Source: Isoetes taiwanensis (lineage: Eukaryota; Streptophyta; Lycopodiopsida; Isoetales; Isoetaceae). Taken from it: DNA of 64,000 bases. Made by a program: the position numbers and the translations under genes. The notes beneath the pieces were generated by a model. That model worked only from the letters and a program-made list of their open reading frames with translations, did no database searches and had not been told where the DNA came from. Shown here piece by piece: positions 1 to 32,290 of this stretch (within the stretch, counting starts at the first letter, position 1; every line of letters starts with the position of its first letter). The stretch covers positions 12,297,072 to 12,361,071 of the forward strand of contig JAJEKV010000040.1 in the NCBI GenBank assembly GCA_021234155.1, in the 5' to 3' direction.

Positions 1-1236
1 TTTTTTTATTTACTCAAGTGATTCTCTTTATCTTATCATCGTAGCCTATATAAGCTGAAGAATCAATAAAAAACTCCATCTGTAAAGATTGATGCAGTCC
101 AACACAATTCTTGATGCGATCCTTCACAAGCTTCATGCTTTGAACTTCATAATCCTTCAAGCTCTTAATTCCAAGCTCTTTCCTCTATGTTTTACTCAAG
201 GCTTCCTTCAAATGGCTCTTCTCCAAAACCCTTGCACACTATTGGCCATTTTTTGTAAAAGTTCTATCATAATTACATGGCGTGCCATGTATCTTTACAT
301 GTATGCTTATGTACATGTATATGCATACAGTTTCTAGACTATTAATAGCCAGTCCGTTACAACACATAGCCCAACATTCTCTCTCCATATTTGATGTTTA
401 TATAGTAAATTCCAACTTCAACGACATCCGAATCTTGCAATATCTGTTTTGTTTTTTCATTTTCCTCAGCAATTTACTCACTAACTTATATTTGTACTTA
501 TCCCTGGTAGTTGATGATACACATTGGCGTGTTGCTGTATTGGAGTCAAACAAGTTCCCCTCCAAGTGTATATATAGGGGAACTTGCTTCAAGCCAATAG
601 TTCACACACATTGGCGTTTGTGATGGGCAATGGTTCAAGGCTTAAGTATCATATTGGATTGCACAAAAAAACACTTGTTATTATGTGTGGATCCAAGATA
701 TTTATTTGGGATTTTGCAGAAGGCAATTGGTCGATATAGTTGGCAAGTTGGATCAAGAATTAAATAGGTTTTGTACAAGTTACTTTATATTCCACTTTAA
801 TGGTAATATTAGTTCTCTATCTGTTTGTGTGTGTTGCACATATATTCCATAAATGCATTCCACACATCCACAACTAATGCCCGACATCGTTGGACACACG
901 TTTCTAATATAAGATTATAATGTTTTGGTGTATATCATCGTGATATGTCAAAATGCGAATGCAACGGCCCATATTTACCCCCAAAATTGAATGATCAGAA
1001 CTATCCAACGGTCTAGTATCACGTAATAATCCGATGGCCTAGCTTCACTCAACCTGACAATCAAACGGGTGAAGGGGGCATATATAACATACATTTTATA
1101 TTTCATAAGTCATATTATCATATAGTAGTAGTAATGGTGCCAACATTACTGGGCATAAGTTGGAAACCTATTCAGCTCCGACTCCTTTTAATAAATCTAA
1201 TATAGTAGTTCTTTGCCTATTGCTCTATCCCATATT
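1..1236. other. AT-rich stretch without supported gene
   Basis: No open frame here looks coding; the short frames are low-complexity and are broken in the second copy (20,773-21,985). A short inverted motif around 'gttcccctccaagtg' and 'agggg aacttgcttc' near 550-590 is the only structure seen. Nothing else is supported. Confidence 0.6.
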
Positions 1237-2056
1237 TTGCTTTTGCTTTTCATTTTTTCCTCATTTTCCTACACACTTTCCTTTTTTCTTTTCTATTTTT
1301 TCATATTTTTCTTACACATTTTCTTTTTCCCCTTTCCATTTTTTCTTTTTCTTTTGTTTTTAACTTTATTTTCCCTCCCTTCTATTCCCTTTCCCTTCCT
1401 CCCCTTTTTTTTTTTCGATAAAGCTTTTTTTTCTTTTTCTTTTCTGCCCTTCCCATTATTCCCCTTCCTTTCCCTTTCCCTTTTCGCATGCACTTTTTCC
1501 GTTCCCTTTTCTCCACCTCTTTCAAGTGCCTCTTTTCCTCCTTTTCCCACCCTTTTCCAATTTTTCCATTCCCGTTTCCCCTCTTTTTTTTTTCCCTTTC
1601 ACCCTGCACATGCCCTTTTTCCGTTCTCATTTCTCCATCTTTTTTTCATATGCCCTTTCTTCCTTTTCCCACTTCTTCCCTTTTTCCATGCTCTTTTTCC
1701 CTTTCCTCATCCTTTCTCTCTGTCTTTTTGCCCTTGTCTTTTCCCGTTTTCCTTGTGCTTTTTTTGCCTTCCATTATTCCCTTTCCGCCCTGCTTTTTCT
1801 TTTCTCATGCCCTTTTTCCTTTCCCATCTCTTCACCATTTTCCTCTTCCCCTTTTTTCCTTTCTTTTCTCCTTTCCCCACCCTTTCCCTCTTCCCCTTTT
1901 CCCATTGCCCTTTTTCCCTTCTCTTTCCTCCCTTCCCCTTTTTCTTTTTTCTTTCCCTTTCCTCTTCCCTTTTCTCCCTTCTCTCTTCCCCTTTCATGCC
2001 TTTTGCCCTTCACTTTTCCACATTCGTCCTCCCTTTTTCTTTTCGCTTTCCTCCTA
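1237..2056. repeat. Polypyrimidine (C/T) low-complexity tract
   Basis: About 800 bases are almost pure C and T on the plus strand, with irregular CCCTTTTTC-type words rather than a fixed period. All frames on both strands stay open here (Phe/Ser/Leu/Pro-rich on plus, Lys/Glu/Gly-rich on minus) because T/C-only codons contain no stop, so these frames are not genes. The second copy lies at about 21,985-22,790. Such tracts can adopt triplex (H-DNA) structure; that is a general property, not shown here. Confidence 0.9.
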
Positions 2057-2169
2057 AGAGGTCAAAGCATGTCCAATTCACGATGGTGGGAAGTCGTGTG
2101 ATAAATCTTGGCCTTCGGATGTAATCTGGTGATCTTGGTCGACCAAATTAGGGAGTGGTTCATTACGGA

Positions 2170-2620
2170 CTTACGCTATAAGATTATAATATAAAAGATA
2201 TGTATATATCATATAGCATATATTTCATAAGTAAAATATATGTCATATAGGATATATAATGACATACATGACATGTCATATGCCATAAGTTAGATACAGG
2301 TCACATTATATACATATATAATTACATATATGACATATGTCACATGGTATATGTATCATAAGATCTATATATGTCATATATAATAGACATATAGGATATA
2401 TAATAACATATATGACATGTCATATGCCATAAGTTAGATATATGTCACATTATACATATAATTACATATATGACATATGTCACATGGTATATGTATCATA
2501 AGATCTATATATGTCATATATTTTAGACATATAGGATATATAATGACATACATGACATGTCATATGCCATAAGTTAGATATAGGTCACATTATATATATA
2601 ATTACATATCATATAGGACC
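2170..2620. repeat. AT-rich palindromic tandem repeat, ~142 bp period
   Basis: The block beginning GACATGTCATATGCCATAAG recurs near 2,270, 2,412 and 2,556, giving a period close to 142 bases. Units are rich in short palindromes (ACATGT, CATATG, AGATCT, ATATAT). Related arrays lie at 5,067-5,420 and 11,340-11,566 and in the second segment copy, so this is a dispersed satellite-like family. Confidence 0.85.
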
Positions 2621-2921
2621 ACACTTGTTTTTTCTTGAAAAGAATATCTATATTTCTCAATACAATGTGTGTACAAAGACGAAGTTCAAAATGGAAGGAG
2701 CAATACTTACACCCTGCAGTTAAAGCATGGTATTGTGAATAGAAGCTGAAAATTTCAGCACAAATGATGATTTAAAAAAAGAATGGAAAAAAGAAGCTGT
2801 TAGTCAAAAGTACTCTAAAATGATCTCAAAAATAGTTCCAAGAAGCAAGACACATCTTTGAACCAATTTATGAAAGTAGACTTCTTCCTGTCCAACGAGA
2901 TATATACCAGGAAAGTACCTC

Positions 2922-4326
2922 TTATCTTGGAAGTTGGTTCTCCTTGGCCTGTGCTTGCATGGGTTTCATTACTTCCTCCTTTATAGTGCTTGGAAACTGG
3001 TTCTCCTTGGTGTGAGCTTGCATAGGTTTCAGTATTTCTTCCTTAGTGTTTGGAACTTGGTTCTCCTTGGTCATCGTCACCAATTCATCATTTTCAGATG
3101 GACTTATATCCCAAACAACCTCCACACTTGGGTGATCTTCTGTTAAAGTGAACTTGGGCCCCACTTTAAAGCCATGCTCACGATTTTAAAATCAAACAAC
3201 AATGATTTCTCTTGCGTGAAGTCATATTGGAGTTTGAAAGACCTTGCCCAACCACCACTATTGAAGAATAAAGGTGCGAGCCTTGGTTGGATCTCCATTC
3301 CCAAGCTCCTCAACATCTCCAAGAAGATATAACGTGTCTCCTCCTCATTTGACTTTAATAAGTAACTTCCAAGTTTAGGTGGCTTCACTCCAACTTCGAT
3401 CCTTTTTGCTTATGGAGCTTCCATTTAGTAACACTTGAATTTCGAATTTTTATTTCTTTCTTTGCCTCAAGTGCACGAGCTTCTTTCTTCAAATGTTTCT
3501 CTCTCATAAGAAAGATTCTGCTTCAAGGACACCTTTTGCCTTTTGCATTGTGTGATGCAATTAAATTCTTTACTTTCTTTTCCATCTTAGTTACTGGCGT
3601 TGTAGCATAGGTGCTCCGCAGGTTCTAAAATTCATATGAGTTGTCTTATCCTTAAAATCTTTAGCCAAAGAAAGTAAAGCATTTGAATCTTGGCTCATCG
3701 GGATCGCTAGGAAAACCCTCAACTTTTTCATGCAACTTGCATGCCTCTTTCTCAACATCAGTCAAGAACTTTTCAATGTGAATATGCTGTGGAGATGAAC
3801 AAGTTCTCAGTAAGTATCTCATGAGCTGTAAGTACCCTGGTCTCTCTTGAATAACATCTTTAAGGTCATCATCCTCCAAATTACATGCCTTCTCCACAAA
3901 TAATTCATCAACATACTCTAACACTCGTGTAGAACACTCAACACTCCAAGCTAAATACCTATCCTCATAGGCTTCCACCATCTCCTCACAATTCTCCACA
4001 ATTACCTTGGCTGTGTTTTGAGGAATCTGTGAGAGAGTATGCAGCGTGCCCCAATCAACAAGGGAATTATCCCATTCTCTATGGTCCCATAAAGTTGGTC
4101 TGACCACAGGTTGAACAGGAGATTGGACTGCCTGATCCCCTTCGTTTCCACCACTACACCTAAATAGAACTTTTCTACATCCTTTTCTATCTTCCAGAGA
4201 ATGTCTAGCATCATCCCTTTTTACTATAATCAGCTTACCTTCAGTGCGAAAAGCAGAATTAGGGGACAAATTAGCAATCCGTTGAAGTAGGTCGGCGGCA
4301 TCCGATGAAGACGGCGACATATCCAT
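2922..4326 (-). pseudogene. Unrecognised minus-strand gene, frameshifted
   Basis: Minus-strand coding sequence that I do not recognise. The best start is the ATG at 4,326; the frame is open upstream to 4,413 but without another ATG, and a CTGCAG just upstream could be a splice acceptor. The first ~220 codons are open and look like a real protein: a Ser/Asp N-terminus, then a soluble mixed-charge region with an acidic stretch (LEDDDLKDVIQERPG). After about 3,690 a small indel shifts frame; the second copy retains a longer frame there ending in QDSNA...FRTxGAPMLQR. Further downstream, Lys/Glu-rich sequence and two open segments (3,388-3,143 and 3,164-2,922) continue in other frames. The last segment holds three imperfect ~20-residue repeats with core TKENQxP...EExxKPMQA. 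Whether the gaps are introns or frameshifts cannot be decided here. Function unknown. Confidence 0.45.
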
Positions 4327-4439
4327 AGCTTTCTTGCCCTGCAGAGAGCCAGATGTCAGACCAAATATGTTTTCTTTTCTTATGGTCGGAAAAAAGGTTA
4401 AGAAGAGTGCCACTGCCTATATTTTGCAAGTACTATTTA

Positions 4440-5066
4440 ATATGACCATTAACGACTTTGCTTGACGTATTTTTAATATGACGATTTAATGACTTTGTTT
4501 GACGTAATGTGACCGTGCGATACTTTTCTTTGTCTTCAATACGAAGCCAGCACACAGTCACAGGCCTAGTTTGCTGGCAGAGTTGGAAACAAGGTCCACC
4601 TTATGTCTATCCGTAAAAGAATATATTGGTATTGTATTGGCCAATATGCAATGGAACATACAACCTTTCTAATATTTTTAAGATAAAAAAACATTTGATT
4701 TATACCTCACACCCTCCTATTTCAAAGGCCAGATACATGTATGTATTATATTACAAGAGATTTTTGCTAGGCCAGATACATGTATGTATGAGATACATGT
4801 ATGTATTATTTTACAAGAAATTTATCACGGCGCCGAAGGCCGCCGCGATCATTTCTTTGGTTCCTAATCTGCGCAATCCGATTCACTATTAACGTCCAAC
4901 GTTGTTACATTTCTCCGACGACAATATACATTCCCTTCAAATCATACCCCCAAGGCCGTCGTGAACATTTCTTTGGTTCCTAACATGCACTAGTCCAACA
5001 TTGTACATTTCACTGACGGATCATACCCCCAATTACAATATTGTACACCATACTAACATGTTGTTG
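4440..5066. other. Intergenic AT-rich stretch with short direct repeats
   Basis: No gene is supported. The word AGATACATGTATGTAT occurs three times between 4,730 and 4,806, twice followed by TTACAAGA-type sequence. A phrase around 'aaggccgccgcgatcattt' near 4,838 is partly repeated near 4,950. Nothing else is seen. Confidence 0.6.
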
Positions 5067-5420
5067 CCTCATATGCCATAAGTTAGATATATGTCACATT
5101 ATACATATAATTACATATATGACATATGTCACATGGTATATGTATCATAAGATCTATATATGTCATATATTTTAGACATATAGGATATATAATGACATAC
5201 ATGACATGTCATATGCCATAAGTTAGATATAGGTCACATTATATATATAATTACATATCATATAGGATATATAATGACATACATGACATGTCATATGCCA
5301 TAAGTTAGATATAGGTCACATTATATATATAATTACATATATATATGACATATGTCACATGGTATATGACATATGTCACATGGTATATGTATTATAAGAT
5401 CTATATATGTCATATATAAT
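5067..5420. repeat. AT-rich palindromic tandem repeat
   Basis: Same repeat family as at 2,170-2,620. The GCCATAAGTTAGATAT word recurs at about 5,078, 5,215 and 5,300 with a shortened last period, followed by doubled GACATATGTCACATGGTATA words near 5,347-5,385. It directly precedes the left end of the TIR element at 5,500. Confidence 0.85.
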
Positions 5421-5499
5421 ATATGTTATATAAAGCAGAGTGAATTCTGAAGACAAGTTGGAATAATTTTTATATAATATACCTTGGAGGGTTATGTAT

Positions 5500-8400
5500 C
5501 GGGGTCTTTTTTGGCTCCTAAAATCGGCGTCTTCGACGCCCGAAATTCGCTTAAGAGAATTTGGGGATGAAAATCTAAGCGATTTTCCTGCCTGAAAAGG
5601 CCCCGCCGGAAACCGGAAATGCCGTGCGCCTCTCGAAAAAAAGAAAAAATAAAAAAAAGGGCAAAATCGCTTAAGCGATTTTCGCAGCGTCGGATTCTGG
5701 CGCTGCCGGCCGCTTTGGCTCGTAGCCTGACGGCCGGACCACGACGAAGGCCAAAGCGCCGCGACGGGCCGCACGGCCAGCCGTGGCGATTTTCCACTTC
5801 TTTGTTTTCACGAAAAAAAAAAAAAAAAACCAAAATCGCTTAAGCGATTTTCATTTGATTGTTTCGACTTGTTTCCACTTCTCTTGTTCATTACAGTTGG
5901 CGCTCGTTTGCTGGTTGATTTTGCAAGCATTTTTAAGTTAATTTTTCAAGGTATTGTCAGTTGCAATTCCTATATTTATGGTTGCAGTAGTGGTAGGAAG
6001 TATTAGAATCGATAAAATGAGTATTAGAATCGATTACCTTTGGAAATTAATTTAGAAAACAACGGTCGTGTTTGCTTAGCCAAGAAAAATCTTGCATTCA
6101 TACCGCTTCTTGTCAAGTCAGTAGTAGAGTTAACCAAGCCATCCTAGATCGGCGTTTAAGGCAATCATTGATAGTTGTGTGATTTTAGTTTTATTCCCCG
6201 TGCAAGTTTTACGCCAAAATAGGATGCCACATATGGAGAAACAATGCTGCCATATGAACTTGAACGTGTCCATTAATCTCAGATGTGGAGATGTAACAAT
6301 TATGTTCTACCACAGAAGCGACATTTATTTGTATTTGTTTGTTTCTTTATTTGCCATATAATATTGTGATTGTTATCTTTATGGTTGCAGTAATCAATTC
6401 TAAACTCATTTTATCTATACATTATGGTTACCAGGCATATTCCCCAAGCAGGCATTATAATATGGCGACAGGTGACCGATGGGGCAGAGATCTTACGCAG
6501 GAGAGTCGCCCGATAGGGATGGACGAGAGTGGGCTCCCGAATTACGTCGACCACGGACAGCCGTGCATGGTTGGGTACATCACTTTTGGTAACCGTGGTT
6601 GAGACCCCCATTAGATAGCTTGCATTTGTGTCTTTAGAGTTTTTCATTTGTACTTGTATGGTTGGTAGGCTAGCTAGCGCTGATTATGGAAGTTTGATTG
6701 AGGGAATATCGAGGCATATGGCTGATTGTCAGGCGCCTGGGCCCCCAAACAACCCGTGGCACACATAGTTTGGCCATTTTATGCAGATCGCGACGCGACC
6801 CTTGTCCCCATACAAACGGACAAGCTACGGTGAATTGGTATGCGTTCGACGGCGAAGGATGGTGCCATTGGGCACCATAATGCATATCCACGAGATATGT
6901 GGTGGCGGTGAGGGAACGTGTCGTCCTAGGAATGACGTCAGCGATACATCCCCTCTCCCGCAGGATGAGGAGGGGCCTGATGGTACGGCCACCGGAACCC
7001 GGCCGAGGCGTGGGCGAGAAGCGGAAATGCATCGCGATGGCCCTTAGAGACATCGCGTGCTTTGGCCGAGGGCCGGTTGTCGGTATCGCGAGGGCTCAAT
7101 GCGTATGACGGTCTGACATTACCTGGCCAGGCGAGGAGTTGGCGGTCGGGCGGTTGTCGGCATCATCAGGGCATACGGGGGCGGTGCACCCTCTATATAC
7201 TTCACGGGGAGGCGGGTCTTGTATGATCGCCGAGGGCCGATACAGGGGAGGATGTAGGTATCACGACGAAGTGAGTCGCGAGGAAGAACAAAGAAGGGGA
7301 ACCGCGATCGTCACGGGCGACCATCATTACCCTCTGATCTTGTGGCGACCATCGTCCCTCTGATCACGGAGGCGACCATGGCCCTCGACTCTGAGACACA
7401 GTTGCATTTCAGTGGCATGTCGTCCTCCACGGCATATAGCATGCCGATTTGGGCGGGGCCATCATTACAAAGACACCGACATGACAGGTCCCGGCCCGGA
7501 TATTGAGGACATACGGGCGATTTTGTTCATTCACACGCCACCTCCACCGCATGTCATAGAGCCCTCGTAGCCGGTAGATGTTTGATGAGTTGCGGGAGGC
7601 GGCCGCAAAGACATACTCCAGATTATCTGGGAAGAGAGGGTTCGTTCCCCAAGCTTGGCATCATTGGTGTCACCCTTTCCTCCGTTGCCCGGATGCACAT
7701 GGCCGTCTGCAGGGGCGAGGGACGGGCTAGAGGCTTCTTTCTCGTCTTTGGGATGGAGTTTGGGGGCGGCAACGCCTTTTATGCCTACTATTTCCGCTGA
7801 CCCTTGGATTGGGTGGGGAGGTGGTGAGAGGCCCGGTATGCACGAGACATTGTGTGCTACATCGAGGTTTGATGTTGCCTCTCTATTTACGGGAGGAGGT
7901 GTGTACATTTTGGGGACCTCTTCATTACCGCAGGGCGAGATATGTCGCAGGTATGGCGGTTGATAGCACACCCCCACGCATTACCCGAGAGATCTTGTCA
8001 TTTCGGTGAAGCAGCGAGAATGTCATTGTTGGGGCCGGCTTCCGCGGCGTTGGATGCAGAGCGCATGCAAGGCAATCGCGAATCGATTGAAGAGTGGGGA
8101 GGCGGATCGTAATGGTAATTATCAGTCGTGTCCTACGCGATTTATTCATGTGTTGTAAACCTTTACATCCCGCTGACCATGTAGCACGTAATGCGATGCA
8201 CGCATGCATCGATTCGAACCGGATGAGAGATCCACATTTGCAATGGTGGACCCTCGTTCGAAGATCACGAGGTCATGGCGGACACACTCGAATGTACCGG
8301 ATCGATGGCGGGAGCTTCGCGAGCTATCATTTTGGCCCATCTCGTCATGGGTGCGTGGCATAGTCCCCATCCCCCTCGTGTCTCCATAGGTACTCATGCG

Positions 8401-9412
8401 GTGTGGCGGTTGCGAGGGGACAATGGTACCTTTTGGTGCATATTGCGGACCACGTGAATGCGAGGCGACTTCGGGTGGCCCAGGCGTTTCGAGGGCTTTT
8501 GGTGCATGGATTCCCTGCCTGGCAGGGTGGGCCATACCGGGACTCAAATACGAGTGCAACCCATGGACGTACAACGGTGAGTTGTTTGCCTGCTGACTTT
8601 CTTACTTTTGGTTGTCTTGAATGCGTGCATCAAGTCCTTACCGTGTTTGGGATAGGGTATTGGGCAGGTGGCTAAACCACACTCATGCCGGACCAATCGC
8701 ACGGCGTTTTGAAACCGGTTGGGCTGCTGGCGGTGGCCCGGTCCCACCACAGAATCGATATTGGTCTTGTGGTGCCCATGTGCGTCTAAACATCCAGGCA
8801 TGTCATGCGAGGGCTTTCCTATGGCGAGGCAGACATAGACTTGCGGGGTTGACACTATCCTTCCCCACCACCTCATTTTTCACTTATATATGCTCCCCAT
8901 GACATCCTGTACCTTCCACCTTGCAGCCTCGCCTTTTCCCTTTCTTCCGCCTGCGTGTCGGTAGAAATTCGGCTTTAATTTGAATTTTTCTTTTCTTTTT
9001 TCTTTTTTTTTTTTTTTTCGTCGACGCCACCGACAAACATTGAAGGCGAAAATCGTTTAAGCGATTTTGATTTTTTTTTTTTTTTTTCCGGCCGTGGTTG
9101 GCTACTGACGGACGCCGATAAAGCGAAAATCGCTTAAGCGATTTTTATTTTTTATTTTTTTATTTTTCCCCGTACCGTGGTCGACGCCGGCAAAAATCGC
9201 AAAGCGATTTTTTCGCTTTTTTTTTAAATCACCGGCGGTGATCATTTTTTTGACGAGCTTAAAATCGCTTAAAGTTTAATTTCACTTTCCCCTTTTGAAA
9301 TTCGCAAAAGCGATTTTAAGAATTTGAAATTCGCTTGTTTAATTTCCCAAAATCAACAAAAGCAAATTTGGTCCGCGCGAGACTCCGATTTCGGGAGCCA
9401 AAAAGGCACCGA
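5500..9412. mobile_element. 3.9 kb TIR DNA element with palindromic subterminal repeats
   Basis: The ends are inverted repeats of about 34 bases: the left end begins TCGGGGTCTTTTTTGGCTCC and the right end, read inward on the minus strand, begins TCGGTGCCTTTTTGGCTCCC. Both continue with AAATCGG(C/A)GTCT. Outside the ends lies a 7-base direct repeat TTATGTA (5,493-5,499 and 9,413-9,419), a plausible target-site duplication. Inside both ends the palindrome AAAATCGCTTAAGCGATTTT or close variants recur (near 5,663, 5,832, 9,055, 9,124, 9,192 and 9,262). No transposase is recognisable, and a 7-base duplication with TCGG...CCGA ends fits no superfamily I can name with confidence. The degraded second copy spans about 26,190-30,092. 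Confidence 0.7.
6440..8900. other. GC-richer interior of the TIR element, possibly decayed coding sequence
   Basis: Base composition rises sharply inside the TIR element. Several short plus-strand frames look protein-like (for example 6,461-6,601 and 8,403-8,675) but none exceeds ~90 codons, and the second copy (27,140-29,640) breaks them at different points. A run with LQWWT then a HFRM-type motif (28,889-29,100 in the second copy) is weakly reminiscent of the N-terminus of Harbinger-type transposases, but no DDE residues can be placed. This is either a decayed transposase or a captured gene; product undetermined. Confidence 0.35.
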
Positions 9413-9552
9413 TTATGTATACCTCAATACTTATAGTATGGTTATGTGTATTACAAAAGGTTATGTATACCTGTTGTATACTAGTACACCTCAATACTTA
9501 TAGTATGGTTATGTGTATTACAAAAGGTTATGTATACCTGTTGTATACTAAC
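9413..9552. repeat. Two-copy 67-bp tandem repeat
   Basis: The block CCTCAATACTTATAGTATGG...TTACAAAAGGTTATGTATAC occurs at 9,422 and again 67 bases later, with a third partial TTATGTATACCTGTTGTATA. It abuts the right end of the TIR element and recurs at 30,098-30,230. Confidence 0.85.
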
Positions 9553-9604
9553 ACAACCAGATTACAATAAGATAAAAAGTACTATTATTCTTCTACTATT
9601 ACTC

Positions 9605-9835
9605 TTACGAATGATCGAGGAACCGGGAAAGAATTTCCGTAGAGATCCTTTCAATCATGAACATTTGATGCTCTCTATTCCATATAAGATGGATGATAAC
9701 ATCGAAGGGATCAGGATAATGGCGAGGATTGAGAGCAACAGTGGTGAGCCAGTCTTCAAGCGGTATATCTCGCTCGCGGCACCACTTGAAGTCATAGCTA
9801 GACGGAGGCCAATGTTGCTGCACTCGGCAATTTGA
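9605..9835 (-). pseudogene. Divergent minus-strand member of the small IHLxW protein family
   Basis: The minus-strand frame is open from upstream of 9,835 to a TAA at 9,605-9,607. From its Ser-Asn-Cys onward it aligns without gaps over about 67 positions with the small protein at 63,719-63,982. Shared residues include SNC, the D-x3-C pair, R-x-I, a Trp at position 29, V-x-I-H-L-x-W (with the extra I, DVIIHLIW) and the R-I near the end; I count about 19 identities. No in-frame ATG lies between the minus-strand TATA-like box (9,841-9,848) and the conserved region, and the C-terminus is altered (ISTE instead of ITSA). It therefore looks like a decayed or 5'-altered family member, transcribed divergently from the two plus-strand genes that follow. 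Function unknown. Confidence 0.6.
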
Positions 9836-9840
9836 TGTAT

Positions 9841-9913
9841 ATTTATACCCACCAAAATTATTGATGGTATATACCCACCAAAATTATTGATGGTATATAT
9901 ATAAAAATTATTG
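9841..9913 (-). promoter_or_regulatory. Promoter-like module upstream of the minus-strand family member
   Basis: On the minus strand, CATCAATAATTTT occurs twice (9,880-9,892 and 9,854-9,866), followed by GGTGGG and a TATAAAT box at 9,841-9,848. A third partial copy (CAATAATTTT) is at 9,904-9,913. The same 13-mer followed by a TATA box precedes both plus-strand genes, so this is the same cis module in the opposite orientation. Confidence 0.65.
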
Positions 9914-9970
9914 GATCATATACATACTTGTATGGTACTCGTATATACCCAATACTTTTGCTGCAGTGGA

Positions 9971-9997
9971 CATCAATAATTTTACTTGACTATAAAA
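9971..9997 (+). promoter_or_regulatory. CATCAATAATTTT + TATA promoter of the 10,034 gene
   Basis: CATCAATAATTTT (9,971-9,983) is followed by ACTTGAC and TATAAAA (9,991-9,997), 37 bases before the ATG. The leader CTCCATTCGGT...GTCATTCATC...CCCATG is shared almost word for word with the gene at 10,676. CAATAATT resembles half of the HD-Zip target CAATNATTG, but that reading is only suggestive. Confidence 0.75.
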
Positions 9998-10033
9998 GTA
10001 GCTCCATTCGGTGGTAGATGTCATTCATCTCCC

Positions 10034-10276
10034 ATGGCTTCCTTGCCTCCTCGTCCGGAGCACATCCAAACTATCAAGTGCTACATGAGCTACAATGATT
10101 TTGGTGAATGCGTGAGAAAGGGTGTCAAACTTGATCCCTATCTGCAATCCAAAGCTGATGGTCCTGAGATTCATTGCCTCGAGCTCACTCGTGTTGTGAT
10201 CCACCTATATTGGCTTCCTGATCAAGAGATCTATGAGCTGAATGCCATCACCTCAGCAGGTGTTGATGATGAGTGA
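10034..10276 (+). CDS. Small conserved IHLxW-family protein (80 aa), unknown function
   Basis: Encodes 80 residues. The ATG at 10,034 is chosen because the leader and start context (CCCATGG) are conserved in the tandem paralogue at 10,676; the frame is open upstream to 9,986 but holds no other ATG. No signal peptide or membrane segment is visible. Conserved positions are IKC-x-M-x3-D-x3-C in the first half and the block TRVVIHLYW...Y-E-L-x2-ITSAGV near the C-terminus, suggesting a compact beta-rich fold (inference). It is about 56% identical to the next gene with no gaps, and shares the C-x-M-x3-D-x3-C and V-V-I-H-L-x-W...ITSA blocks with the small genes carried antisense in two Ty3 retrotransposons (55.1 kb and 63.7 kb). 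I do not recognise the family. Its own promoter and leader support a real gene. Confidence 0.8.
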   Translation: MASLPPRPEHIQTIKCYMSYNDFGECVRKGVKLDPYLQSKADGPEIHCLELTRVVIHLYWLPDQEIYELNAITSAGVDDE

Positions 10277-10614
10277 ATCAGTGATGACTTGTAAAAATTG
10301 TGAAAGGATATAATGATATAAGCACTTCTGAAATATGTAAGGATGTATAAGAATAATGAATATTATTTGATGTATCGAACCTGAGTAATTTGTAACGGTG
10401 TGCTCTTCGACCTCCATTTTTTCTGCAGGCAGTCCCTAATTTCAAGCACACCTAATTTACTCAAGCACAAATACTTTTACCTTACTAAAATCCAAGATAC
10501 AAAGCATGATTTCACATGCCACATATATCCATACAAAATATGCATTATACTTGTACGTGTACGTGACTCTTGTACACGCTCAATAATGGCGCTACAATCT
10601 ACACCAATAATTCA

Positions 10615-10642
10615 CATCAATAATTTTACTTCACTATAAAAA
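10615..10642 (+). promoter_or_regulatory. CATCAATAATTTT + TATA promoter of the 10,676 gene
   Basis: CATCAATAATTTT (10,615-10,627) is followed by ACTTCAC and TATAAAAA (from 10,635), about 36 bases before the ATG. Spacing and flanks match the module at 9,971-9,997. A further CCAATAATTCA lies just upstream (10,603-10,613). Confidence 0.75.
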
Positions 10643-10675
10643 GCGACTCCATTCGGTAGAGGTCATTCATCGCCC

Positions 10676-10918
10676 ATGGATTATTCGCCATCTTCTGTGC
10701 ACCACATCGAGGCAATCAAGTGCTCAATGAGCTACAATGATCTTGTCGGTTGCCAAATAAGGGGTATTCTTCTTGATCCCTACCTGCAATCCAAAGAAAA
10801 TGGTGCTGAGATTCGTTGCCCCGGGCTAACTCGTGTTATGATCCATCTTATTTGGCTTCCTGAGTGCAATAGCTATGAGATATCAGGGATCACCTCAACA
10901 GGTGTTGAGGATGAGTGA
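10676..10918 (+). CDS. Second small IHLxW-family protein (80 aa), unknown function
   Basis: Tandem paralogue of the gene at 10,034: exactly 80 residues, 45 of 80 positions identical with no gaps. Invariant features are IKC-x-M-SYND-x3-C, LDPYLQSK in the middle, LTRV-x-IHL-x-WLP, Y-E, and ITS-x-GV-x-DE at the end. It keeps the three cysteines at the shared positions and gains one more (PEC) in the WLP loop. The ATG is fixed by the conserved leader. The region after the stop carries AATAAA at 11,016-11,021, a possible polyadenylation signal. The copy at 31,359 is disrupted by indels. Function unknown; clustering with a paralogue under the same promoter module suggests a recent tandem duplication of a working gene. 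Confidence 0.8.
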   Translation: MDYSPSSVHHIEAIKCSMSYNDLVGCQIRGILLDPYLQSKENGAEIRCPGLTRVMIHLIWLPECNSYEISGITSTGVEDE

Positions 10919-11339
10919 ATCAGAATTTCAGCAATATATAATGTAGTGATGTTCTGGCATATAAGATATAGTAATGCATAAGAGCACTTGTATTAATTTG
11001 AAATATGCAGAGAGTAATAAAAAATAACTACCTCCAGCATAAATACTTCTGAACTCCATATTGTTTGGGTTCTGGAGCGCGACGCTTATGAGATAGATAA
11101 AATCACCAATGACTATATATATATGATCTAAATTATAGTAATGTACAAAATCTTATGTATTAAGATGAAAGATATGTATTACAAGTACAAGATCTCATGT
11201 ATTAAGATGAACAATGTGCTATGTCTTTCCACATATCTACAATATATTTCGGAATTTGGACAGTTTTCGGCCTCTTGCCTTTGGCATCCCAGGCATAATG
11301 AATAGCATCTAAATTTTTGTACCTTGAAGGATTTTCGAC

Positions 11340-11566
11340 ATAATAACGTATTGTCACATGGTATCGGGAATGTCATACGAATGTCCCATGATATATGTAA
11401 TGTCATATATAACATATGTCACATAGTATATGTAAGGTCAGATGGCATACATCTCATATGTCATATAGTATACATAATAATACGTCTCATATGCCATAAG
11501 TCAGATATATGTCACATGGTATATATAATGTCATAAATGACATATGTCACATGGTATATAGTCATA
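11340..11566. repeat. AT-rich palindromic repeat array
   Basis: Words such as CACATGGTATAT, GACATATGTCACATGGTATA and CATATGCCATAAGTCAGATA mark this as another array of the family seen at 2.2 and 5.1 kb. The bases before it (10,919-11,339) hold only the 3' region of the small gene and AT-rich sequence without a supported gene. Second copy near 32,035-32,250. Confidence 0.75.
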
Positions 11567-11607
11567 ACATTATGCTTTTGTGATGCATAATGTATAATGT
11601 TGACATA

Positions 11608-11865
<258 letters not shown>

Positions 11866-12006
11866 GCCTCCAAGGCTTATTAGACGACAAATTTAAATGT
11901 CATCGTAAAACAATAGATGAGTTTCTGAATCATCTAGCTCATCACTCTTACTCAAATTGTCATTATCATCAACATTATGATTATGCATACAAACTTCTCT
12001 ATACTT

Positions 12007-12342
12007 TTAAAGCTCAATAAAATACCTCCCTACTATATTCCTATTTAGGGTGAAAAGGTTGGCGGATCTTGTGTAGTATATTCCAAACTTATCACGTAAT
12101 CCATTGTATGTTGTACATCGAAGCACCACATGGTCCTCATCCTCTACTTTAGCTTCCCCACATATTTTACAGTATCTTTGATCTCTAGGAATAATATGTC
12201 CCCATCTACCCACTTTCACACTTAAATGATGTGAACTAAACCAAATCCTACAAATAGCATGTCTTTTTAGGATAAAAATATTTTCCCTCAGGTGCCCTGC
12301 AATTTCCAACGTGGGGTTAATATTCTGCTTATACAAAATCAT
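12007..12342 (-). pseudogene. LINE retrotransposon C-terminal fragment (zinc-finger tail)
   Basis: This minus-strand frame of ~111 residues carries the typical tail of plant/animal LINE ORF2 proteins: a WFSSHHLSVKVGRW block, then a C-x2-C-x10-H-x5-C zinc-binding motif (YCKICGEAKVEDEDHVVLRC), then CTTYNGLRDKF and a VGRYFIEL end. The RT domain itself is missing here. A stretch homologous to the segment just upstream in such proteins lies at 16,525-16,740, which may be the other half of the same element separated by 4 kb. The second copy (32,714-33,055) differs mainly by a small indel that changes a few residues before the end. A dead fragment. Confidence 0.8.
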
Positions 12343-12519
12343 TTTGGTCTTGGGCTGCGACCATATCTTCTTATGTATTATCCTGGATATCTATTGTCTT
12401 AAATCAGATTTTACTAAGACCATGTTATGGTACAAGCATGGGGGAGTGGTCCACCGTGAAAGTGCTATAGGAAACTGGCAAAGCTATGTAGATGTTAATT
12501 CCAAATTAGCCCAGTAATA

Positions 12520-12948
12520 TAAGGGCAAGGGATAGTAATTATTCTTCATTAACCAAAATATTTATACACCTATGGATGGGGTCATGGATGCAAGGAAGAT
12601 AAAAGGAATACCAAGTATAGCAAAGAAAGGGATGTGACAAGGAAAGAATGTTATTAAATCTCTGTAGATTCTAAAGAAGGCCTTTTATTACATAAAAGAT
12701 GTACATCGACATATTTATAGGGAGCGTCAACGACTTAATCACAAAGGGGCAAACCATTATGTCCACTATTAGCCATGAAAAGGTTGAGCTATAGAAATCT
12801 ACGCAAAGGGTTAAAGGGGCACGTTTATTGGGATAAAAGGCAACAAGGCAATGGAAATAGACGCCAACTATTTTAAGTTTTAAAAGTAACTTTTGTAATT
12901 AAAAGGGGAAGTTGGGCTATCTCTAACATATAATTATAATAAGGTAGA
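12520..12948. other. Stretch without supported gene upstream of the heat-shock-like promoter
   Basis: No open frame looks coding. The sequence is nearly identical in the second copy (33,227-33,653), which may mean that it is functional, recently duplicated, or simply better polished. Nothing else is seen. Confidence 0.5.
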
Positions 12949-13104
12949 TTCTGGAATGTTCTATAATTGAACATAAAAATATAGATTTTTCAATGGTCAC
13001 TATAAATGGAAGGTACTAGAAGATAGAAGATGGAGTCTGTTTCTAGAAACATCTGGCGCCTTCTTGAATGATACAGAAAGCTCTTTTATCTTCGTATAAA
13101 AGGG
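12949..13104 (+). promoter_or_regulatory. Heat-shock-element cluster with TATA box
   Basis: TTCTGGAATGTTC (12,949-12,961) is a perfect trimeric heat-shock element of the form TTCnnGAAnnTTC. Two further dimeric sites follow, TTCTAGAA (13,041-13,048) and TTCTTGAA (13,061-13,068), then TATAAAAGGG at 13,095-13,104, 27 bases after the last site. This spacing is what a heat-inducible plant promoter looks like. The same sites are kept at 33,654-33,810. The downstream transcript has no recognisable ORF, so this could drive a non-coding or retroelement-derived (LTR-like) transcript. Confidence 0.55.
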
Positions 13105-14500
13105 AGGAGAAGGCGGCACTTCAACCCTAGCGGAGATTGAGTGCCGATTAATCTGAAGATGCAACCCTAGCGTGAGGTTGATTGCGAGAAGAATCTAAAC
13201 CCAGTCGTCCTGGATAAATACGAACGGGGGTGCAAATAACGTTTCCTTTTATAGAGAGAGCGGCGACAGAAAGCCCCTAGGGCGGCGGCAATACCTCGCC
13301 ATGCAGATTTCTACTGAGATTTCTACTTAGTTATTCAGACGGCTGCACAGGTAGAACCGAGAGGCAGGTTGTTCTATAGTTTTATTGAAGCCGGGTTACG
13401 AAGGGTATGAGCGAAGGATTCATGGAATGGGTTTACATAAACTAAATAGCTCCTAGAAGCTTCTTCTTTATTAAAAGTCTTTGGTTTACATAAACAGTGT
13501 GTGTTTTATTAGCGATACATAGTCCGCAGTCGCTCGATTATGCTTTATACGCCATTATCTTTTTCTATTTTCGGGGGTAAACCGGGCGTCGAAGGCGGCG
13601 CTTTCAGTAAGGATTTCGATGGGATTTCTTTTCTAGTTTGAAAACAATTGGTGAATTTTGATAAGAGCCAAAGGAGCCATTTGGGTTTTGCAAATCAACC
13701 TCTTGGTGAAAATCACTAGAATTTTGCGGTAACTTCTTACTATAAGCGTAGTGATGTCTTGAATGAATTAAGTATAAAAACTTGCCAAGCTTTGGTTTTT
13801 GAGGCGGTCAAATTTATTAGGCAAAAGGTTAGCTAATGCGGTGATTTACGGCCCGGCATATATGTTTTCAAGACAATAACAACAATGGTGTGGCATAGTT
13901 TTTGGAGACAATTTGGCGTGGCGGGGTTATGGACAGCGATTGCAAGCTTCTGGGAACTTCTCTCATCTTCTAAAATCATCGATTTTACAGCGTCTAGAAT
14001 GATCTAGGCGGTTCTCTTTGATATAAAAAAAGGAAGGGCAAGCAAATCAAAACCCGAGCTTAGGTTGATGGCAAGTTTGTTAAAGTTGGGTGTTTGTTTG
14101 GCGGTAGGTACGGTTGGTTTTATTTTGGTTGTATTGGAGGGCGAAGGCAAGCTGTGGATTTAATCTGGCGGAAGTAGTTTCTTCGGGGGGACGATTTGAT
14201 GGAAGCGTTCTCCGCTGCGGCTTTTATTTTTCTGCCGGGGAAGGAAATCGTTGTGTTAAGATCGGCCTCAATCAAGAGCTCCAGATGAATGTAGAACCTT
14301 TTGGATTCTTCTTTCTCCTCGATTGTTGCAGTCTAGGCCAAATAATTTATCTTCAAGTTTGTTAAAATCTGAAGGGCGGATACCTCCTTAGTAGTCTCTT
14401 TTTTAATCAATCTTTCTCAACCCGGACCCGGTGTTGCCTCTACCTAGCAGCATGGAGATCAAGCTTGAGCTTTGTTTTGGTGAGATTCTAAGATAAACAC
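13105..14500. other. Leader-like region with a second TATA block, no recognised ORF
   Basis: Sequence after the TATA box carries two AACCCTAGCG words (from about 13,125) and no convincing long frame. A second promoter-like block at 13,992-14,035 has TCTAGAATGATCTAGG followed by TATAAAAAAAGG (from 14,022), echoing the first block. A short plus-strand frame at 14,114-14,365 is not conserved in the second copy because of indels. It could be the untranslated part of a decayed LTR element; no LTR pair could be delimited. Confidence 0.35.
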
Positions 14501-16400
14501 ACGGAAAATGTCAAGGCCAATTTCGTTTCCTTCTACTCATCACACGCCAAGGGCGTGCACGGAGGGCGGCCGGAGATTAGATCATTTTGACCAAAAATGT
14601 TTTGTGCCCAATTTCGGCAAGCTATGGCCCTCAGCTGCTCTTCTAGAATTAGCTCTCCTTTGGATGCTGGGAAAGGGTCCTTATTTCCTTATGGCCTTCG
14701 TTTTCTTATGACAGGTAAAGATGAAATGTTCCTCAAGACTCCGTCATATCCAAATTATGCATTCTCTTTGTCATTAAGGTTTGCTTCCTTAAACTTTTAA
14801 CTCTTTTAATCTCAACTGCTTTTTGATCTATAACAATCTGAGGTGCTTTGAAGTGGTCCTCGAATCCATGTAAGTTTGTATTGGAACTTTGAACTGGTTC
14901 TCAAATCCACCTAAGTTTGAATTGGTGCAGAGGTTTTGGCAGTGGCATTACCATATTTTAAGGAAGTGAGATAAAGGTTAAACTACTTTTGTGTAAATCT
15001 GCAGTGCAGTACGATGATAATTGTTGCATCTAAAATATTCATTGTGCCAACTCATTATTTGATAAGCCAACCTCCTACAAGCTCTAAAGGCGAGGAGGCT
15101 ACTTACACACCAAAAGCCCTCCATAAGCCCTCATAGCCCTTAAGCATAGCATGTTGAAAGACCTTTTTTGTTTTAATTAAAAGGCGGTTTGAGAGGCGAA
15201 TAATGTCTGGATCATATCCAAAGCTTTTTATATTTTACAAATATCCAAAAAGTTAAATTTTAACATGTTTATTTTTGCCCCAAATTTATGCAAGATGTCT
15301 TTGACATGTTGAAGCCATGCCTCGTTAGCTTCCATTAAATCAATTTTTTCGGATACCTTGTGTAGAGAATACTTTTCGACATTTAGAGCTTTGCTCTCTT
15401 TGCTATGGTGAGAGCATGTGGGGTCATAAGGTCTATATGAGCTCTACTCTTTAGGTGGAATTGTATTGGGGGAGGTTGGTGGCGAAAAAGTCGGTAGAAG
15501 GGAGGATTCATATCAATTCCTCTTTTGAACTAACTGTCTTTCGTCTTTGTTAAAATAATAGTTGTCTTCGTGATAGGTCGTGTGGGATGATTGAAACAAT
15601 TGTTTATGTGCATTCTTCTTTCAATTACTCAAAATACACTTGAGTCGTCATCCTTTGGCAACTATAAGTTGATGTATTTCAAAGTAAAGCAATGCTCAAA
15701 TTGTAGGCAATTTTGAGCGTATATTTGGTCCCGATCGGTTATTGTATATACAAAAACATGTGCTACACTCAAAATCCGATTCTTTATGTGTGCATAGCAT
15801 AACTCCTTACATCTCTATTAACAATGGACATCAAAACTTCATACCCTTAGATAATGCTTGAGGATCAAACGTATTCCTCGATAAAATGCCAAAAAAAAAA
15901 AAAAAAAAAAAAAGATGTGGGCGGCCTTGGCCATAATAACTACTTGTATATATAATTGTGGATTATCAATTATTTACCAAGTAGCGTCCAACGACGGCCT
16001 TCTGCGACAAAATCCGATTCGGTGAAGGAGCGACCAGACTCGGGCATAGTTGCTTGTATCCAAGCTAATTCAGTGTTCTTAGGAAGTTCTGCCTAGATAC
16101 TCAGTTCCTTCAAGCGGTTTTGTGCTGGTCTAAATGCTTCTGCCGAAGCCCTATTGAAGCATCCTTTTCTTCCATAGCCAGGTATTTGCTTTGTTGATTG
16201 GAGGCTACGGTGAAGTAGCGTTGATCATTCCATTATCCAATTGCCAGAGCCAGTGTATCTTCCTATTCTTATCATTCCAAGATCGGAGGCTGGGGTGTAG
16301 CAATGGTGATCAATTCCAAGAGCCAGTAATCCGGTGTATAGCTTTGCCAGTATAGCCTTTCGGAGGTGGATCCAGTTGGGTGGTTAAGTACTCTACCATA
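14501..16400. other. Long stretch without supported gene
   Basis: Short frames only. The part 14,640-15,060 is nearly identical to 35,340-35,770. An A-run of about 24 lies at 15,889-15,913. At 16,195-16,340 a phrase around 'gcggaggctggggtgtagcaatggtgatcaattcc' type sequence is partly repeated, suggesting a small internal duplication. Nothing codes recognisably. Confidence 0.5.
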
Positions 16401-16524
16401 GCAATTTGACTGTATTGAGTTCCAGATTGATCAAAGATCTATTGTTTAATTCCATATTCAGTAATTCAAGGATGTTCAAAGAGTCCAAATCCATAAATCG
16501 TATCAAACCACCTCATCACATATC

Positions 16525-16740
16525 TCATTTATTGAGCCATTTCTTGATATCTTGGAACAAACCATTCTCCTTGCTGGCTAACAAAGCCATGCGTGTAATT
16601 CTAGGATCATCCATGAGTAACACCTTCTTAAAATATGTAATGCATCTAAGAATCGCTTTTCCTTCAAAAGGCATGAGACCATATTCTGCTAACATTATAG
16701 AGTAAGGTGTTTGGGATTTAACTCCTAATTCCAGTCTCAA
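16525..16740 (-). pseudogene. LINE ORF2 fragment (post-RT region)
   Basis: This minus-strand frame of 71 residues has the pattern S-x-TPYSIMLAEYGLMP, then ILRCITYFKKVLLMDDPRI. It matches the segment between the RT domain and the zinc tail of LINE ORF2 proteins (V..T....L.E.G..P......I.YF.KV..M). A T-run on the plus strand (16,748-16,770) abuts its 5' side. The frame stops at 16,525; coding-like sequence continues with stops towards 16,300. The copy at 37,241-37,456 encodes the same residues. The plus-strand frame across the same bases (16,406-16,705) is its shadow. Confidence 0.65.
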
Positions 16741-16746
16741 GGTGTC

Positions 16747-16777
<31 letters not shown>

Positions 16778-16984
16778 GAGATTGTTCATAGAGTGAACAT
16801 GGGCAGTGAAAAAATGCATCTCTAATATGTAGCATAATAACAGGGGGTTTTCTTTGTGTTTTTGTACGCTTTTCACTAAGGTTTTCCTATGATTTCGTGA
16901 TGTATTCAAATGGATGTACTAATGCGTACATCTAGAGTGCACCATTTCTTGAGCCATTGATTTTAGCTTTTTTTTTTCAATGGT

Positions 16985-17165
16985 CAACAACCAATGGCTC
17001 ACAACAAAAGCCCTCTTTTTGTGCTTGCAACCAATGGCTCACAACAAAGCCTATTTTTTTTGTGTGTGGTGCATAATGGACACATGAAGGGCTTGCAACC
17101 AATGGCTCACAACAAAAGCCCTATTTTTGTGTCTGTGGTGCATAATGGGCACATGAAGGGCTTGA
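16985..17165. repeat. Three-copy short tandem repeat (AACCAATGGCTCACAAC)
   Basis: The phrase AACCAATGGCTCACAACAAA followed by GCCCTNTTTTTGTG occurs three times (near 16,988, 17,030 and 17,097). The last two are followed by GTGGTGCATAATGG(A/G)CAC. The same array lies at 37,688-37,872. The in-frame translation is repetitive and probably not a protein. Confidence 0.85.
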
Positions 17166-17605
17166 AGGGCGCATGTAGTGCAGCATCCCCGCCGGTAACA
17201 CATTTCTTATCATAACTTTTGATTCAGAGCTCTGTTTGAGATGATTTTTATTGCGTTGGAAAGCTCTTTCCGAGATATTTTTGATAGTGTATGATATGGA
17301 TATGTTTGGTTAAGTTATCTATGCTAAAACAGCAATTTTTCGGCCGGGTTTGGTAGGCTTTCACATCCCTATCGGTGATTAATCTGAGGATTAGCTATTG
17401 GATATTGTTTTTCGGCTCATTAGAATGAAGCTTGCAAAAATTGCCATGCATTTTTTAGATTTTAGGCGGTTATTAAGCAAATTCCAAGGCTTGTAGATCC
17501 TTGTGCTAACAAGCGGAAAAAGTTTCCACTTTGGTTTCTCACCACAAGAATCCATGGAGGCCAAAGGCTGCTGCTAAATTCCAGTTGAAAAATATTTGTG
17601 TATGG

Positions 17606-17660
17606 GTGAATATGCACCCAAACCAAAGGGGGTTTAAGGGGGATTTTAATTTAAATGTGT
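17606..17660. repeat. Half-arm of the inverted-repeat (MITE-like) family
   Basis: GTGAATATGCACCCAAACCA followed by AAGGGGGTTTAAGGGGGATT matches one arm of the inverted-repeat element at 41,666-42,106 with a few changes. No opposite arm is near, so it is a truncated relative. A copy is present near 38,318-38,370. Confidence 0.6.
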
Positions 17661-17979
17661 TGGACCCAATGGTTGTGTCATTCCACTTGTTCGTGAACAT
17701 TTTTCCTTGATTGGCCAAACAATGAATTATGAAATAGTGATTATGTAGATGATAGTCCAGGCCATCCACATCTACCATTAGTAAGACAATCCCAACATTG
17801 GTAAAAGTACGTTCTGAACTTCTAAATAGACTGTTTATAGAATAAACGTCTTCTCCAGCATAATAACATAGTACCTTTGAATGAATATAACAGCGGAAGA
17901 TGAGGAACCATTAGAATATGTTCAAATATTCTCCATATCTCTTAATTTAAGTTTATATTTTGAATACACCATGGCCTTA

Positions 17980-18005
17980 AGAATAGAATAGAATAGAATA
18001 GAATA
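17980..18005. repeat. (AATAG)n microsatellite
   Basis: Four to five AATAG units in a row; the same run is at 38,689-38,712 in the second copy. Confidence 0.9.
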
Positions 18006-18269
18006 TGATTTTATAGTCCACACGAGGAGACCAAGCGGCCTATGGGACCCAAGTACTAAAAAAGAAGCGTGCCGGTATTACTACCCGGGATTAAAAACCC
18101 ATAGAAGGGTTTGAGGAGGAAAAACCTTAATGTGCAATAAGGATCTTTGACATCTTTCTGATTATATACATAATCACAAATCACGGTGAGATTAATGTCG
18201 GACGGGGGCATAAGCGAGTCGGCGTATCCATTACCTCGGTATGATCCCAACAAACCCTCTGATAGTGCT

Positions 18270-19363
18270 CGATTAGCTCATGCAAGGCGATGGGGCACAA
18301 GCTAGCAGAGTATCAGAGGCAGGATATCTTTGATGCAGCCGAGGGCGGGCACGGGGCGTGACTTTCATCCTCAATGGCCACGTTGGCGGCAGCGGACTCG
18401 TCCTCACGGGCTCAGAATCCATCTCCACTGTCTCAATGCGGAGGTGGTGTGCACTGTCGCGAATGGAAGCAATCACCCTGCGCTTTTCATGGGTAGATGG
18501 AGTGCTGGAGGGTAGTGGTGTGGGCCCTCGTGAGCATGGGATTAACACGTTGTCGATAATTTGCCACCTTGACATGTGCGAGGGCCTCTCCCAAAGCTTG
18601 GCCATGAAAACAAGCATCAAATCTCTTTGCTTCAAGGCATGGCGTTCCTTGAGTGTATGCTGCTTGGTCCACATCAGGTGTGCACGCACATTCCATAGCG
18701 AGAACCAGCGGGCTTGCTTGTCTTTCCGGCCGGACTTTGAGTCATTTGCGGGCCCCATCACCTGCGCCAAAGCAAGGTTAGGCGTAGGGCTTCATCATAG
18801 CCACCACCTTACGGAAGTAAATAATGTGGCGTTCAGTAGCGACCCTACGTAATGGAAGGAAGCACGTCTCTGGAGCAAGATGCGATATGGGACCGTGGAC
18901 TTCACTCGGTGCAGGGCCAAGAAGGTATACGGTACCTACTCTAGATCGTTCCAAGTGGTGAGGGATATCGGCCCCCACACTACGCCCCATAGAGGAGGAC
19001 GGTTCAACCAAGGCCACGAACAAGTGTGCTGGTGACCTCATGCATCTGACTCTGCCTTTGGTTTGTTGTTTTGCATTGCATCAGGGGCTTTCGACTGCGG
19101 TGACCCGTATTGCTGATGGATGCATCGGTGTGTGGTAGTAGAAAACTCAATGCCCAAATACTTATGAAGCTAGCCACCTCCACTACCTGCCCACAGTAAG
19201 TGAATGAGGAAAAGGCGTGGGTCTTGGGGATGATGGGACAGCCCGGCACCCTTGTCTTAAGCGAGATTAACTCATGTCGATTGGAATTGGCGGAAAGTGT
19301 CCAAAGCATCCGGTGGCGTTGCATGTCCTCACAGGGTATATCGCGGCGAGGAGTCAACATCAT
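18270..19363 (-). pseudogene. LINE reverse transcriptase C-terminal half, decayed
   Basis: Minus-strand frames broken by indels, but together they follow a LINE ORF2. EDMQRHRMLWTLSANS and a KTRV lie near 19,270-19,340 (just after the RT active site in family members). FTYCGQVVEVASF lies near 19,180-19,200, then an IPHHLERSRVGTV block, RHIIYFRKVVAM (near 18,790-18,840), and a tail with SHMSRWQIIDN (near 18,560). The YADD-containing part, present in the second copy at 40,060-40,100, is absent here: homology between the copies stops at about 19,365. A dead fragment. Confidence 0.7.
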
Positions 19364-19365
19364 CG

Positions 19366-22790: not shown

Positions 22791-22929
22791 TGCTCACGGA
22801 GGTCAAGCGTATCCGATTCCGATGGTGGGAAATTAGGTTAATGATAAATCTTGGCCGGATGTAATCGGTGATCTTGGTCGAGGCAAATTAGGAGTGGTTA
22901 AATTCTGGACTTCTGTTATAAGATTATAA

Positions 22930-23360
22930 TATAAAAGATATGTATATATCATATAGCATATATTTCATAAGTAAAAATATATGTCATATAGGATATATAA
23001 TGACATACATGACATGTCATATGCCGTAAGTTAGATCTGAGGTCACATTATATACATATATAATTACATATATGACATATGTCACATGGTATATGTATCA
23101 TAAGATCTATATATGTCATATATAATAGACATATAGGATATATAATAACATATATGACATGTCGTATACCGTAAAGTTGAAATATATGTCACATTATACA
23201 TATAATTACGTATATGACGTATGTCTAAATGGTATATGTATCATAAGATCTATATATGTCATATATTTTTTTAGACATATAGGATATATAATGACATACA
23301 TGACGTATCGTATGCGTAAGTTAGATATAGGTCCGCATTATATATATAAATTACATATCA
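22930..23360. repeat. AT-rich palindromic tandem repeat, second copy
   Basis: Corresponds to 2,170-2,620, with scattered changes such as CATATGCC to CATATGCCG and GTCACATGG to GTCTAAATGG. Confidence 0.8.
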
Positions 23361-26125: not shown

Positions 26126-26189
26126 TATGTTATATAAGCGAGTGGAACGAGAAGACAAGTTGGGTAATTTTATATATGCTATGGAGGGT

Positions 26190-32250: not shown

Positions 32251-32290
32251 ACATTATGCTTTTGTGATGCATAATGTATAATGTTGACAT

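Follow-up and report, generated by a model that had tools for sequence, protein, structure and literature searches.

Antisense additional open reading frames (ORFs) of plant Ty3 elements have been described, and their function is given as not known in two papers (PMC11963269, PMC7264820). According to the same papers, the antisense ORFs of Retand/Tat elements (TRP28, PF04195; gene23 of maize Grande) lie between pol and the 3′ LTR and are present in most copies, for the antisense gene of Grande a promoter of its own was shown, and for the antisense proteins of Retand and Grande a role in regulation was proposed (PMC11963269, PMC7264820). Recently active Retand elements are assigned there to Eudicotyledons and Liliopsida only (PMC11963269). 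In bdelloid rotifers, ORF3 types common to LTR and Penelope-like retroelements were read as the result of exchange (passages of PMC5408684). VANC of the Arabidopsis VANDAL elements is described as a non-transposase protein with an anti-silencing function, whose sequence-specific targets often form tandem repeats (PMC5735166).

Here we analyzed a family of small proteins encoded in a 64-kb stretch of the quillwort Isoetes taiwanensis genome (the window). Like the Retand/Tat genes, as far as the passages cited describe them, the copy at 55.1 kb of the window lies antisense between pol and the 3′ LTR, and the position, putative promoter and constraint of the sequence type to which it belongs (P3) resemble those of the accessory genes of flowering-plant Retand elements. 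The quillwort protein differs from them in that it is much smaller (~80 residues), has no TRP28 match and occurs in a lycophyte, and in that the family also has a relative in an unrelated kind of element. TRP28 (PF04195) was not matched in Pfam scans of the five window members (E ≤ 10) or of six sequence types (E ≤ 1). As with bdelloid ORF3, the accessory gene type is present in differing element classes; however, the bdelloid ORF3 proteins are enzymes or membrane proteins with known relatives, which the quillwort protein lacks in the databases searched, both bdelloid carriers are retroelements whereas one quillwort carrier is a DUF7869 element, and antisense placement is absent from the descriptions in the passages of PMC5408684. 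The likeness to VANC would concern the mode of working alone. Antisense placement itself is already known from the plant Retand/Grande elements, in the sources as cited, but the protein family and its sharing by two kinds of element look new. A literature search of titles and the starts of abstracts, with subscription journals and repeat databases outside its scope, did not find the family described, and DUF7869 was named in no paper found in the literature searched.

The protein family in the window

Four members are clustered near 10 kb, and two P3-type members are borne by Ty3 elements. The cluster starts with a P5-type relic (9605-9835, minus strand; frame 9605-9823), divergently oriented to the P1-type gene (10034-10276, plus strand; TATA box at ~9991), and continues with the P2-type gene (10676-10918, plus strand; TATA box ~41-43 bp 5′ of the ATG) and a C-terminal fragment of a P6-type gene (11054-11116, plus strand; tblastn 5e-7, 76% identity over 21 residues). 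The original prediction had proposed a minus-strand relic and two plus-strand genes of exactly 80 codons that are 56% identical, and the frame coordinates and the comparison of P1 with P2 bear this out (80 codons plus stop each); the three members that it placed in the cluster are present, but the fourth, the fragment, had been overlooked. Uninterrupted P5-type frames of 81 codons are present elsewhere in the genome (L041, L042). The two further members that had been proposed antisense in Ty3 elements were also found at the expected coordinates and strands. At 63.7 kb a P3-type gene of 84 codons plus stop lies on the minus strand (63719-63973; other possible ATGs at 63979 and 63982) behind a pol on the plus strand, and at 55.1 kb a broken P3-type gene lies on the plus strand (55107-55330; frame 55107-55286; TATA box at ~55058) behind a pol on the minus strand. 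A net 28-nt deletion and a frameshift removed the IHLxW segment from the 55.1-kb copy.

In single-pair BLASTP comparisons, the 63.7-kb protein matched P1 (1e-9), P2 (8e-8) and the relic (3e-9), and the relic matched P2 (4e-5). In leave-one-out searches, a profile of P1 and P2 only detected both the 63.7-kb frame (9.6e-9) and the relic (0.0018), and a profile of the two Ty3-borne frames only recovered P1 at 6.4e-7 and P2 at 6.6e-6, whereas the top matches of the three models in the reversed window, used as the control, were at 3.5, 0.8 and 1.2. In a shuffle test of seven pairs z ranged from 5.6 to 46, and the observed score was reached by 0 of 5000 shuffles in six pairs and by 3 of 5000 for the relic and P2. 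Judged by these sequence comparisons, the five frames are one protein family, which has at least six sequence types; the genes that had looked host-like and the retroelement genes do not fall into unrelated families, since the profiles match across the two groups. Within the shared pattern of the original prediction, the IHLxW segment is not invariant: across the six types the invariant residues are C16, M18, D22, C26, V54, I56, H57 and I72 (P1 numbering). An ungapped alignment of ~67 positions had also been claimed for the relic and the 63.7-kb protein, and BLAST gives 55 residues.

The view that no named family shows this pattern holds for the databases searched: proteins and profiles gave no convincing match in Pfam, NCBIfam, PHROGs or the PDB sequences, with RsfS (RsfS/Iojap) as the best PDB profile match, a weak one (E 0.033 over 25 positions). 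In the AlphaFold prediction the P3 protein folds compactly, in the order beta-alpha-alpha-beta-beta (pLDDT 81, pTM 0.69; five window sequences), and this predicted fold had no clear structural match. Neither the fold nor the sequence matches indicate DNA or RNA binding.

Frame-broken copies of P5, P1 and P2, which the original prediction had missed, lie at 30288-31613, within a 20.7-kb near-duplicate (2-19367 against 20774-40073, 87% identical) that differs by 952 indel events and 996 substitutions, in patches separating near-perfect stretches. The published assembly (1658.30 Mb, 204 scaffolds and 909 unscaffolded contigs) was made from Nanopore reads with gap filling by LR_Gapcloser, as stated in the passages of PMC8566536. 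The near-duplicate probably arose by gap filling that was left unpolished, and a real tandem duplication or an independent locus is less likely, since the indels and substitutions form patches as such filling would give, and the broken genes at 30.3-31.6 kb were left out of the counts of independent loci. Long frames of low complexity with much Phe, Pro and Ser, which stem from a stretch rich in pyrimidines, were observed at 1213-2124 and 22003-22841, and recurring palindrome-like AAATCGCTTAAGCGATTTT segments beside T-runs at 9000-9330. In addition, a 578-codon reverse-transcriptase-like ORF on the plus strand (46702-48438; RVT_1 E 5e-5, under the Pfam cut-off), with 44601-46106 upstream, is presumably Penelope-like by its look.

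Two kinds of carrier

The Ty3 element that carries the 55.1-kb copy was delimited by self-alignment and an empty site at 48847-61975 (minus strand). Its 571-bp LTRs (48847-49417 and 61405-61975) are 97% identical, and the empty site at 17675-17881 shows a 5-bp target duplication. The element was inserted in a repeat (flanks 48731-48846 and 61976-62069), of which empty copies lie at 17.7 kb and, in the near-duplicate, at 38.4 kb. Its pol pieces carry RNase H and integrase domains, with RVT_1 only below the Pfam cut-off, and the small gene lies between the end of pol (55483) and the 3′ LTR (49417). Two sense ORFs on the minus strand, one of them coiled-coil-like, were also seen between pol and the 3′ LTR (53099-54354 and 50331-50996), and neither matched a Pfam family above cut-off. 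The 63.7-kb gene follows a Ty3 pol fragment with the integrase (62055-63596, plus strand; Pfam rve 6.5e-13, Integrase_H2C2 7.4e-12).

The assembly searched for further copies comprised 1,658,258,908 bases in 1110 contigs. The P2, P3, P5 and P6 queries had at least 150 confirmed genome matches each, every match listed having E ≤ 5.6e-23, and loose candidates numbered 4479, 5440, 2924 and 3969, respectively; for P2, 150 of 150 scored matches were confirmed at E ≤ 1.9e-35. With at least 150 confirmed copies each, the four types are repeats. Genes of the P5 and P6 types pair head-to-head, as seen in 37 of 37 neighbouring pairs picked by eye from the matches listed, with 252-338 bp separating the matched stretches; these pair counts come from copies that share descent.

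A Ty3 pol adjoins the P3-type gene in each of the 17 distinct loci, of which 12, with that of the window among them, belong to L009-L020 and five further ones to L031-L040, and the gene and pol are convergent in all ten of the ten-kb loci L031-L040. The surroundings of P2 are of another kind. In nine of ten ten-kb loci P1 precedes P2 on the same strand by ~530-670 bp, and in nine of ten (the exception is L025) a long ORF lies downstream of P2 in convergent orientation. This ORF is unbroken in L024 (2002-4653, 884 codons), where it matches DUF7869 (PF25273) with 140.4 bits against a curated cut-off of 26 (E 6.6e-41); the query used for DUF7869 was the L024 ORF itself, to which the L021 ORF is 46% identical. 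The domain matches the main ORF of this second carrier and is uninformative on the small gene, and the ORF may encode a transposase. The tandem pair at 10 kb, which had been taken as host-like, belongs instead to a cassette that is dispersed in the genome (150 of 150 scored P2 matches), of which it is one copy and which stands tail-to-tail with a DUF7869 ORF in nine of ten ten-kb loci. Hence two kinds of element that are unrelated to each other carry the family. The original statement that it is carried by retrotransposons therefore stands for the antisense copies in Ty3 elements but is too narrow, as DUF7869 elements carry it too.

Since the earlier loci had been chosen by the small gene, a second sample was drawn by carrier, with five of the at least 150 pol matches and five of the at least 150 DUF7869 matches listed, taken at spread ranks. 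In all ten (5 Ty3, 5 DUF7869) a family member was found directly downstream of the main ORF, antisense and tail-to-tail. Seven of these copies are uninterrupted, with 80-86 codons, and three (L049, L050 and L056) are frame-broken. The member behind the DUF7869 ORF of L056 is diverged, apparently frame-broken and unlike the other types. The convergent stop codons lie 122 bp apart in the window Ty3 copy and ~132 bp apart in L024. Between the two carriers, no DNA similarity was detected at the small gene, and no common replication machinery was detected.

Constraint, promoters and cassette exchange

Purifying selection on the protein is strong in the Ty3-borne copies (dN/dS 0.07-0.10), and the P1 and P2 types show only mild constraint (0.46-0.65). 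For P3, mean dS was 0.79, dN 0.059 and dN/dS 0.07 (17 loci), and differences at the three codon positions numbered 823, 587 and 3218, whereas the ratio was 0.58 for P1 (8 loci), 0.46 for P2 (13 loci) and 0.50 for P5 (3 loci). These gene-selected ratios lean low, because the loci come from the best-matching rows, ranked by similarity to the query, and the carrier-selected sample, which serves as the check, gave 0.10 for Ty3, where dS was finite in 7 of 10 pairs and two loci with shifted tails were kept in, and 0.65 for the DUF7869 copies of 4 of 5 loci (the frame-broken L056 left out). The differences between P1 and P2 of the window itself are nearly equal across the codon positions (19, 21 and 23). 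When genes of the same loci were compared, the ratio was 0.13 for pol and 0.056 for the P3 gene (45 pairs), and 0.116 for the DUF7869 ORF and 0.33 for P2 (18 pairs), so that constraint on the Ty3-borne protein is no weaker than that on pol, and the proteins borne by DUF7869 elements evolve faster than the protein of their carrier. In the ten Ty3 loci among L009-L037, dS of the P3 gene exceeded that of the neighbouring pol roughly threefold (0.70 against 0.24, 45 pairs).

In the DUF7869 loci mean dS was 0.906 for the ORF against 0.097 for P2 (18 pairs). In three pairs of loci (L024/L026, L022/L027 and L023/L022) P2 and its surroundings from -600 to +400 are 84-96% identical, whereas beyond +400 identity is 61-86% (51% in one last bin), and the step lies close to the DUF7869 stop at ~+377. 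A promoter-plus-gene cassette has been exchanged among diverged DUF7869 elements; the pairs that show the step compare the same two element groups and may reflect a single event, and L024 compared with L029 or L030 gave no equally sharp step.

The genes carry promoter-like sequences at fixed distances. The distance from the start of a TATAWA box to the ATG is 41-44 bp in 13 of 13 P1 loci and 12 of 12 P2 loci, 48-57 bp in 16 of 17 P3 loci, and 51-52 bp in 3 of 3 P5 loci; taken together, 44 of the 45 loci have the box so placed, compared with 7% of 51-bp stretches drawn at random from the window, although these counts are not independent because the loci are related by descent. The strict pattern was found in neither of the P6 and P7 examples (one each). 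In addition, a 13-mer, CATCAATAATTTT, is found ahead of the TATA box in P1, P2 and P5 genes and is doubled in several P5 genes. In the window it lies in two copies upstream of the P5-type relic (9854-9892, minus strand), and once upstream of P1 (9971-9983, plus strand) and of P2 (10615-10627); its eight window matches, four of them inside the near-duplicate, compare with 0.41 expected. In 18 loci, 41 of 42 matches lie no more than 250 bp upstream of a family gene, in zones to which 7.4% of the bases belong; L044 and L046 are one place, so that two matches enter this count twice, and here too the copies share descent. The motif is nearly missing from the ten Ty3 loci, with one match in 99 kb, so that the Ty3-type promoters differ from the DUF7869-type ones. 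Beside the TATA boxes of the DUF7869-type genes, CATCAATAATTTT is a candidate target of the encoded proteins.

Possible roles of the small protein

That the frames are protein-coding accessory genes of mobile elements is nearly certain. The best explanation overall, to which we give a probability of about 0.45, is that they are translated accessory genes with their own promoter, whose products act in trans on element expression or silencing. The gene would be transcribed from its own promoter, counter to the main transcript of the element, and the transcript would yield a small alpha/beta protein with an effect in trans on the expression or silencing of elements, in a mode like that of VANC on VANDAL and like the role proposed for the Retand/Grande antisense proteins in the passages cited above. 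By this analogy, VANC-like anti-silencing would be the favoured working model, and it is tentatively that we take the protein to regulate the expression or silencing of elements and not to take part in an integration or packaging step. In favour of the overall explanation are the homology within the family, the copy numbers, the constant association with the two carriers, the constraint on P3, the placement of the TATA boxes and of CATCAATAATTTT, the confidently predicted small fold, and the published precedent for position, promoter and role. Weighing against it are the mild constraint on P1 and P2, the frame breaks in three of ten carrier-selected copies, the scarcity of CATCAATAATTTT in the Ty3 loci, the P6 and P7 examples that do not fit the strict TATAWA pattern, and the fact that no fold or sequence match indicates nucleic-acid binding. 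A fuller version, in which one family of trans-acting regulators, counterparts of VANC, serves Ty3 and DUF7869 elements alike, moves as a promoter-plus-gene cassette that docks antisense 3′ of the main ORF, and acts through its DUF7869-type members on the repeated CATCAATAATTTT, is in our judgement improbable as a whole; a target shared by both carrier groups is not supported, because CATCAATAATTTT is missing from the Ty3-type promoters.

The protein might instead be a cofactor of the replication or integration of the element, for example in nuclear import, packaging or the choice of integration site. The constant adjacency to pol or to the DUF7869 ORF fits such a role, as does a P3 constraint that equals or exceeds that of pol (0.056 against 0.130 in 45 pairs), but the carriers share the gene and yet no detected replication machinery, and the swapping of cassettes between diverged DUF7869 ORFs argues against tight co-adaptation, which leaves this role improbable. 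It would also be conceivable that the antisense transcript matters and not the protein, so that a convergent overlapping RNA damps the element or ends transcription and the ORF is incidental. This is a published alternative for such ORFs (a passage of PMC7264820), it agrees with the tail-to-tail arrangement in 10 of 10 carrier-selected loci and with stops just 122 bp (window Ty3 copy) and ~132 bp (L024) apart, and the mild ratios of P1 and P2 fit it less badly; but the strong codon-level constraint of the Ty3 type (823/587/3218) and the presence of one protein family in two carriers with no DNA similarity detected at the gene make it distinctly unlikely.

A host gene family captured by the elements, with the 10-kb cluster as a host remnant, is the least probable of these alternatives and very unlikely. 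Although the tandem and head-to-head cluster with its own putative promoters looks gene-like, P2 and its neighbours recur as dispersed repeats whose element flanks are shared, and no solitary non-repeat member was seen among the at least 150 matches listed of thousands of candidates.

Under the favoured reading as trans-acting accessory genes, two kinds of element carrying one small family suggest a shared helper that is kept and traded. A lycophyte has a small, highly constrained antisense gene, and a related gene occupies the same position in an unrelated kind of element. The retention of one small protein by two unrelated selfish elements points to an obstacle on the host side that both face, such as silencing, and the family supplies a candidate DNA motif and a compact protein for testing this idea.
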